Shown one piece after another: positions 35,686-37,787 of a stretch of 64,000 bases of DNA; position 1 is the stretch's first letter; each line of letters opens with the position of its first letter. The DNA comes from Heliophilum fasciatum (GTDB lineage: Bacteria; Bacillota; Desulfitobacteriia; Heliobacteriales; Heliobacteriaceae): NCBI RefSeq assembly GCF_004341395.1, contig NZ_SLXT01000003.1, forward strand, positions 62,001 through 126,000. The letters are read 5' to 3'. Under the pieces are notes generated by a model. That model was given only the letters and a program-made list of their open reading frames with translations, searched no databases and had not been told where the DNA came from. The translations under genes and the position numbers were made by a program.

Positions 35686-37014
35686 TTAGAGATGTGGTTG
35701 ATTCGGCATCGTCACCATCTTCGGCAAACCGGAAGGGTCACTGTTCAAGCTCGTGTGCCCAAAACTACCCCCTTGAACGGCAAAGCCCGCATAGGCCTCT
35801 TCACCATGTTGAGTAAGATCCAGCCCCGTGTATTCTTCTTCCGCCGTTGCCCGTGCTTTGGTGATCCCATTGACTGCGTAGTAGATGATAATCGTCGCTG
35901 CTGTTGCAAAGGCGTAGCTAGCAGCAACAGCAATCAACTGTTTGATCAGGAGATCCACGTTACCGGAATACAACAACCCGTCAGCACCGGCCGAATTCAC
36001 CGCTGTTGTCGCAAAAATTCCTGTGGCAATCGCCCCCCAGGTGCCGCCCAGACCATGAATGCCAAAAGCATCCAGTGCATCGTCATAGCCCAACCGGTGC
36101 TTCATGAGCACACCCATGTAACAAAGGGGACCGGAAATCAAGCCCATCACAACGGCCGCACCGGGAGTAACAAAACCAGCCGCCGGCGTAATCGCTACCA
36201 ACCCGGCCACAGCACCGGAAGCGGCCCCTAACAGCGTGGCTTTGCCTTGGCGCATCCATTCCACCATCACCCAGCCAACAACACCGGCCGCCGCCGCCGT
36301 ATTCGTCGTCACCAAAGCACTACCGGCCAGACCGTTGGCACCCAAGGCGCTGCCGGCGTTAAATCCAAACCAACCAAACCATAAAAGTGCAGCACCGAGG
36401 ACCGTCAAGGGAAGATGATGCGGCGGCATCGGTATCGTTCCAAGACCGCGCCGTTTCCCCAGCAGCATCGCCAAAACCAATCCGGATACACCGGAAGTAA
36501 TATGCACGACCGTCCCGCCGGCAAAATCAAGGGCGCCGAGCGTACGAAGCCAACCGCCAACGCCCCAGACCCAATGGGCTACCGGGAAATAAATCACCGT
36601 TACCCACAGCACCATAAAAAGCATAAAGAAAGGAAAGCGAATTCGTTCCGCAAAAGCACCGCTGATCAACGCCGTCGTGATAATCGCAAACATCAACTGA
36701 AACATGGCAAAGACATTGTGGGGAATCGTCGCTGCATAATCGGGATTGGGCTCACTGCCCACACCGTTAAACAATGCCCAGTCAAAGTTACCGATGAGAC
36801 CGTGGTTATCAGGGCCAAAGGCCAGGGAGTAGCCATAGAGGACCCAAAGCACCGAAACCATACCAATCATAATGAAGCTATGCATCATCGTACTGAGCAC
36901 ATTTTGTTTGCGGACCATCCCACCATAGAAAAAAGCCAACCCCGGCGTCATCAGCATCACTAACGCTGCCGACATCAAAATAAAGGCTGTATCACCCGTA
37001 TCGATTCTCAACAT
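35686..37014 (-). CDS. amtB: AmtB, ammonium transporter
   Basis: 442-aa Amt/Rh-family channel with eleven predicted membrane helices. The N-terminal TPGLAFFYGGMVRKQNVLSTM signature, the DFAGGTVVHITSGVSGL pore-His helix, and the second His motif FGIHGLGGTWGAIATGIFA are visible. The frame is open to 37068, but AGGAGG lies 7 nt before the ATG at 37014. The soluble C-terminus is about 45 residues. It follows glnB, whose product normally plugs AmtB when nitrogen is plentiful. Confidence 0.95.
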   Translation of the reverse strand: MLRIDTGDTAFILMSAALVMLMTPGLAFFYGGMVRKQNVLSTMMHSFIMIGMVSVLWVLYGYSLAFGPDNHGLIGNFDWALFNGVGSEPNPDYAATIPHNVFAMFQLMFAIITTALISGAFAERIRFPFFMLFMVLWVTVIYFPVAHWVWGVGGWLRTLGALDFAGGTVVHITSGVSGLVLAMLLGKRRGLGTIPMPPHHLPLTVLGAALLWFGWFGFNAGSALGANGLAGSALVTTNTAAAAGVVGWVMVEWMRQGKATLLGAASGAVAGLVAITPAAGFVTPGAAVVMGLISGPLCYMGVLMKHRLGYDDALDAFGIHGLGGTWGAIATGIFATTAVNSAGADGLLYSGNVDLLIKQLIAVAASYAFATAATIIIYYAVNGITKARATAEEEYTGLDLTQHGEEAYAGFAVQGGSFGHTSLNSDPSGLPKMVTMPNQPHL

Positions 37015-37032
37015 CTCGCTTCCTCCTATCTG

Positions 37033-37170
37033 CAAAAAACAAAAAGCTCCCGAAGGAAGTGCTTCCACTTCCCTCGGGAGCTCCAGTGCTCCTCGTTGCT
37101 GTCCCCATTCCGGACAACGTGCTGATGCCGCTACGGGCCGGACGCGTTAACCTGCGCCCCTTAATGGACG
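37033..37170 (-). promoter_or_regulatory. glnB-amtB intergenic leader: hairpins, terminator and possible ANTAR-type antiterminator
   Basis: On the minus strand a strong intrinsic terminator (15-bp stem CTCCCGAGGGAAGTG and partner, 37047-37080, then a T-rich run) lies between glnB and amtB, only about 20 nt before the amtB ribosome site. It is preceded by a 5-bp hairpin GGAGC-ACTGGA-GCTCC (37077-37092), whose hexaloop has A at position 1 and G at position 4 and whose 3' arm shares four bases with the terminator. A further hairpin (37095-37118) lies upstream. This is the layout expected for ANTAR-protein antitermination, known to control nitrogen genes in Clostridia; it remains a hypothesis here. 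Confidence 0.55.
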
Positions 37171-37171
37171 A

Positions 37172-37685
<514 letters not shown>

Positions 37686-37787
37686 CGTATCTTTATTGTA
37701 GCGGGGGATTGCCTTTTTGACAATCCCCCTTTTTCAATTTTTTCATTTTTTTAACCAAAGGTTGGCAAACACTTTGATTTGTAAGCC

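Follow-up and report, generated by a model that had tools for sequence, protein, structure and literature searches.

Several regulators with an ANTAR domain are under the control of a partner protein, as AmiR is with AmiC and NasT with NasS, and in Clostridium saccharobutylicum the response-regulator-like antiterminator NitR acts on glnA and gltAB. On the RNA side, genes for P-II, ammonium transporters, nitrogenase and glutamine synthase were predicted as ANTAR targets by Ramesh et al. in 2012 (PMC3369931), and the principle of an ANTAR attenuator before nitrogen genes is therefore not new. The element known from that work and, likewise, from later surveys consists of two hexaloop hairpins (PMC8164766), P1 and P2, whose mutual spacing mattered both in vivo and in vitro, antitermination by EutV in vitro being dependent on it (PMC8934654). 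Walshe et al. (2022) have since redefined the minimal ANTAR-binding motif as one hexaloop (PMC8934654). According to the same study, both hexaloops are needed in turn to act against termination during ongoing transcription, and single sites are to be expected where no such time constraint applies. Our literature search, the coverage of which was incomplete, returned no ANTAR study in heliobacteria, and neither a heliobacterial regulon nor an ANTAR-glnB gene pair was found in it.

Here, we analysed a window of 64,000 nucleotides (G000:C3:62001–126000) of the 3.14-Mb draft genome of Heliophilum fasciatum; "the window" denotes this whole stretch, and positions are counted from its first letter. 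Since a type-I reaction-centre protein (PF00223) is encoded in this genome, as it is in those of seven relatives, the organism is a phototrophic heliobacterium. A reaction-centre gene (PshA-like, type I) lies inside the window itself, at about 907–1578 on the minus strand. On the same strand, glnB is followed by amtB, with a gap of 157 bases between them, and the window glnB is the single P-II gene found in the genome (one PF00543 match). In two relative genera (L004–L008), AmtB1 is extended at its N-terminus by a long Ala/Pro-rich segment, which starts like a signal peptide and is absent from the window AmtB1. In order of transcription, the genes and the features of the gap are the following:

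37172–37510, minus strand: glnB, P-II nitrogen regulator of 112 aa (NCBIfam P-II models, E 4e-41, below the equivalog cut-off)
37098–37118, minus strand: upstream hairpin GUUGUCC[GGAAUGG]GGACAGC, closing a 7-base loop where P1 would be expected (folding)
37077–37092, minus strand: P2 antiterminator hairpin GGAGC[ACUGGA]GCUCC with A1/G4 hexaloop, proposed ANTAR-binding site (sequence, folding, conservation)
37043–37084, minus strand: intrinsic terminator stem, the 5′ arm of which includes the P2 3′ arm (folding, covariation)
37033–37042, minus strand: U-rich tract of the terminator, TTGTTTTTTG (sequence)
37022–37027, minus strand: amtB Shine-Dalgarno sequence AGGAGG (sequence)
35686–37014, minus strand: amtB1, ammonium transporter and gene under the proposed control (TIGR00836 amt, 477 bits against a cut-off of 343)

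This anatomy bears out what an earlier note, made from the letters of the window alone, had described: a strong terminator right before the ribosome site of amtB, a hexaloop ACTGGA with A1 and G4 whose 3′ arm is common to the terminator stem, and a second hairpin with a loop of seven bases. The terminator stem comprises 19 pairs, ten of them G-C, closed by a GAAG loop, and folds at −35.2 kcal/mol (z −8.0; −6.2 for the entire gap), with the Shine-Dalgarno sequence and the amtB ATG (37014–37012) following directly. The P2 hairpin is made up of GGAGC (37092–37088), the loop (37087–37082) and GCTCC (37081–37077). As this last arm lies inside the 5′ arm of the terminator, the two folds are mutually exclusive, and gap RNA ending ahead of the terminator 3′ arm adopts the hexaloop hairpin when folded. 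A simple scan found no promoter within the gap; given a terminator of this strength, the default would thus be that glnB is transcribed and amtB mostly not. The gap very probably constitutes a transcription attenuator that an ANTAR protein would control, by binding one hexaloop hairpin and thereby antagonizing termination.

Is one hexaloop all there is? A hexaloop hairpin overlapping the terminator recurs in all 13 amtB leaders of the family (eight genomes with amtB, four genera), and the A1/G4 hexaloop and the alternative fold are also kept in relatives of the same class. For the first hairpin the picture is different: no canonical P1 (at least 3 pairs, at most 100 nt upstream of P2) is conserved in the 13 amtB leaders, and none of the 13 has an A1/G4 P1 adjoining P2. 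The sole P1-like match among them, in L005, overlaps the end of glnB and was rejected as chance-like. In Heliophilum, the 3′ end of the 7-base-loop hairpin at 37098–37118 lies 10 nt before the P2 loop. The hairpin is stable (−11.0 kcal/mol), and the amtB2 leader of the same genome has a hairpin, UAACC[GGGAUG]GGUUA, at the same distance from its P2. It might therefore be argued that the gap holds a canonical dual-hexaloop ANTAR element in which 37098–37118 is a slightly deviant P1 that is still bound. However, 37098–37118 is no proper P1, being neither an A1/G4 hexaloop nor conserved in relatives, and the 5 nt that separate it from P2 are for this reason hard to set against the P1-P2 linkers of about 5–12 nt described for eut elements (PMC3369931); the amtB2 loop is not of the A1/G4 kind either, and nothing comparable is found in the other amtB1 leaders.

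The leader of glnB bears on the same question, for it contains a second attenuator of this design:

37695–37723, minus strand: glnB promoter TTGTCA-17-TACAAT (sequence scan; −10 box conserved in seven genomes)
37675–37686, minus strand: second P2-type hairpin, GAC[AAAGAC]GUC, of the glnB leader, located 8 nt past the −10 box
37647–37686 (region to 37641), minus strand: glnB-leader terminator of −15.4 kcal/mol, overlapping the second P2 hairpin and followed by T9 (folding)

The glnB leaders of six further genomes show the same design with GAC[AGAGAC]GUC, always about 8–11 nt past the −10 box. Transcription generally starts 5–9 nt past a −10 box, so that the glnB transcript would begin at the hairpin itself, leaving no room for a P1. 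With its start site placed by the promoter boxes rather than by mapping, the glnB leader appears to be the strongest argument that one hexaloop suffices. An inverted repeat, GGGGGATTGTC-AAAAA-GGCAATCCCCC (37730–37701, minus strand), covers the stretch that separates the −35 from the −10 box of this promoter; it is terminator-like on the plus strand, and the palindrome is absent from the relatives' leaders examined.

Both hairpins are present in glnA leaders only, where a classical dual element begins with P1, GUCAC[ACAGAC]GUGAC or similar, continues with P2, GGC[AAAGGC]GCC or a variant of it, and closes with a terminator. Even here, an A1/G4 P1 occurs in just some of the leaders. Three glnA leaders (L179, L182, L184) have a P1 loop with G at position 1, GACGGU or GAUGAU; in the Heliophilum genome it reads GACGGU (G1/G4). 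That the family thus possesses P1 hairpins, one of them in Heliophilum, speaks for the dual-hexaloop explanation, which, with the upstream amtB loops deviating and the glnB leader offering no space, we nevertheless regard as unlikely, though deserving of serious attention. Since amtB leaders show no conserved P1 and the glnB leader lacks room for one, most of the elements are best read as single-hexaloop attenuators.

How far does this set of elements extend? A covariance model built from the 13 amtB leaders (R1) revealed, within the family, further elements before Bmp-type ABC transporters; the other targets in the family, amtB, glnA, glnB, nif and nadE, are nitrogen-related. Across the class, R1 picked out leaders of amtB and of other genes in a second family (f2), taken to be Desulfitobacteriaceae. 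Its matches in the Heliophilum genome at contigs C30, C7 and C24 were discarded as ordinary terminators with no overlapping A1/G4 P2. One relative, G004, has an amtB2-type attenuator after ANTAR-glnB2 (L147, G004:C1:54881–54946) and only one amtB found in its genome; the gene once regulated by this attenuator seems to have been lost. The model built from glnA leaders (R2) recovered eight of eight of these, and additionally P2-terminator elements of the A1/G4 type near nif genes in G005, G006 and G007, upstream of nifI-type P-II genes (L203, L202, L205), as well as an A1/G4 hexaloop, GGC[AACGGA]GCC, with terminator upstream of an NAD synthase-like gene that reads as NadE (L206, G007:C1:506476–506586). 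In Heliophilum, a single NifH-type match passed the cut-off; no P-II gene is linked to it, and its upstream region has no such element. ANTAR proteins are encoded in all 18 genomes with an R1 match at E ≤ 1e-4, and also in 52 of 65 genomes lacking such a match, the reach of R1 being limited; with ANTAR this common elsewhere, the co-occurrence is weak evidence. The family member G008 has no ANTAR, amtB or P-II gene, and no glnA attenuator.

Which protein might read these leaders? A single ANTAR gene is present in the Heliophilum genome, on contig C31 (PF03861, 64.9 bits against a cut-off of 27.3); its product, of AmiR/EutV type (type B), aligns end to end with EutV (6wsh/6ww6) and Rv1626. Measured against the RNA contacts of EutV, among which Tyr164 stacks on G4 (PMC8934654), the protein keeps the equivalents of Arg142, Lys143, Lys147, Lys149, Glu160, Met172, Asn173 and Arg175, and has His for Tyr164, Gln for Arg168 and Ser for Arg177. 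Its receiver is a pseudo-receiver, with Glu in place of the phosphorylated Asp and the acidic pair missing. Relatives encode a second type (type A), in which Phe takes the Tyr164 place and the phosphorylation Asp is replaced by Ser or Thr. In five genomes from two genera (L015–L019), the type A gene immediately precedes glnB2, and amtB2 comes next in four of them. Since the usual phosphorylation is unavailable to either type, control through a partner is likely, much as AmiC controls AmiR and NasS controls NasT; the C31 protein, lacking the site, probably receives its signal from such a partner, and the gene order in relatives, by itself, suggests P-II as a candidate.

Type A is absent from the Heliophilum genome, and type B is absent from three relatives that keep attenuators, which implies that either type may serve. 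If only type A did, the Heliophilum leaders would be relics, their regulator having been lost, and the remaining type B protein would serve another locus, conceivably that of the phosphate propanoyltransferase-like (pduL-type) gene which its own gene adjoins, distant from glnB-amtB. Yet all four elements of this genome, in the amtB1, amtB2, glnB and glnA leaders, are intact and carry A1/G4 P2 loops, and its type B protein keeps a canonical DKAKG segment, in place of which those type B proteins that occur together with type A have NQAKR. The retention of DKAKG fits, and does not prove, service to these leaders; the relic scenario strikes us as improbable, with a small chance of being correct.

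Alternatively, the attenuator might answer to something other than an ANTAR protein, be it a different protein that binds RNA, a small molecule or ribosomes translating the preceding gene, given that ANTAR binding is deduced and that the only ANTAR gene resides far from the operon, beside a pduL-type gene. We consider this very unlikely. An A1/G4 hexaloop over a terminator is the published signature of ANTAR targets (PMC3369931, PMC8934654), and the adjacency of ANTAR, glnB2 and amtB2 genes in relatives points the same way. Moreover, at the Rfam gathering threshold the whole window yielded two tRNAs only and no riboswitch or leader family, and a lax threshold (E up to 10) gave no credible match in the gap.

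The pattern of sequence change across leaders argues for recognition of the loop. GC[A..G..]GC is invariant in the 13 heliobacterial amtB leaders, the rest of the loop being variable, and the P2 pairs are kept throughout (100%). One position changes in three arms together, from A-U-A to G-C-G in amtB2-type leaders, namely in the P2 5′ arm, the common arm and the terminator 3′ arm; in the terminator stem, both sides have changed at 8 of 14 pairs. The 20 distinct P2 loops compared without exception have A at position 1 and G at position 4, part of these loops having been found with searches that favour A and G at these places. A base-blind scan of the window and the family loci detected an overlapping hexaloop hairpin at 24 of 238 distinct terminator-like sites. 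Fifteen of the 24 hexaloops were A1/G4, all of them lying ahead of amtB, glnA or the operon of a Bmp-type ABC transporter, compared to none of the other nine; as the loci had been gathered around these genes, the counts describe specificity rather than genome-wide frequency. In a control set of AmtB-related loci from diverse phyla rather than heliobacteria, an A1/G4 hexaloop sat on the terminator in 3 of 80 amtB leaders, at a slightly looser A1/G4 limit. It is most improbable, then, that we are dealing with a plain terminator that fixes the glnB:amtB ratio through partial read-through, its unbound hexaloop a chance by-product of a GC-rich stem: the terminator is very strong indeed and bases common to a stem make some alternative hairpin likely, but such a by-product would account neither for fixed loop positions 1 and 4 and closing GC pairs amid variable loop bases, nor for fully kept P2 pairing, nor for the lack of A1/G4 in the remaining terminator hexaloops.

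The ANTAR-attenuator reading of the gap is thus well supported, by its anatomy, two folds that exclude one another, loop bases kept across relatives, concerted changes in the arms and the ANTAR gene carried by the genome. As for the earlier note, its proposal of an ANTAR attenuator stands with regard to the conserved hexaloop and alternative fold and the encoded ANTAR protein, while the second of the two hairpins it expected, which it had already seen to fit less cleanly, is not conserved in amtB leaders and has no room in the glnB leader. The comparison it had called for with the same gap in other heliobacteria, and with covarying arms, came out in its favour in every amtB leader found, and the ANTAR gene it had asked after is the pseudo-receiver gene on C31.

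What would be the physiological role of such a device? By default, polymerase coming from glnB would reach the strong intrinsic terminator and stop ahead of amtB. As the gap is transcribed, GGAGC[ACUGGA]GCUCC would form first; when nitrogen is short—we infer both that nitrogen limitation is the signal and that it acts in this direction—the ANTAR protein would bind the A1/G4 loop and hold the common arm, so that the terminator is blocked and amtB transcribed. With the same device in the glnB, amtB2 and glnA leaders, ANTAR would turn on ammonium uptake and assimilation together, an upstream recruiting hairpin being available in the Heliophilum genome in the glnA leader only. The regulator would likely be the C31 protein, as the sole ANTAR protein encoded. 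Counting against a single-hexaloop ANTAR explanation are the missing or non-canonical P1, a defining part of the known element, the absence here of the ANTAR type that adjoins glnB-amtB in relatives, and the His at the Tyr164 place. In its widest form, the proposal is that heliobacteria regulate nitrogen fixation as well as the uptake and assimilation of ammonium through single-hexaloop ANTAR attenuators, some of which sit right at the 5′ terminus of the mRNA, and that these are read by pseudo-receiver ANTAR proteins that take their signal from P-II and not from phosphorylation; we put this forward tentatively, as a possibility on which we would rather bet against than for. If true, it would explain how heliobacteria control ammonium uptake and, in some of them, nitrogen fixation, and the ANTAR gene upstream of the P-II gene in relatives would suggest a route by which a nitrogen signal arrives at an RNA antiterminator that cannot be phosphorylated.

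How does this locus compare to the systems described so far? NitR, too, is of ANTAR type and governs ammonium assimilation in a Clostridia-type organism, with different targets and a different gene order. Compared to a phosphorylated EutV-like regulator, the heliobacterial proteins have no phosphorylatable Asp, type B carrying Glu there and type A Ser or Thr; the missing site suggests control by a partner, reminiscent of AmiR-AmiC and NasT-NasS, with P-II suggested for this part by the gene order of relatives. With the dual-hexaloop RNAs of EutV, NasR and AmiR, the leaders share an A1/G4 P2 that excludes the terminator, an ANTAR protein encoded in the genome and nitrogen targets; in contrast to them, the leaders of amtB, glnB and further genes lack P1 or have a non-canonical one, both hairpins being found only in glnA leaders. 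The amtB element would accordingly rank as a single-hexaloop variant of the ANTAR attenuator, lacking P1 and displaying the other features tested. Its conserved part is one hexaloop, as is the minimal unit of Walshe et al. (2022). Where single sites were expected to occur free of a time constraint (PMC8934654), however, the single hexaloops found here overlap terminators, and conserved leaders of this kind, including a glnB hairpin at the presumed transcription start, directly test the model in which two hexaloops act in turn.
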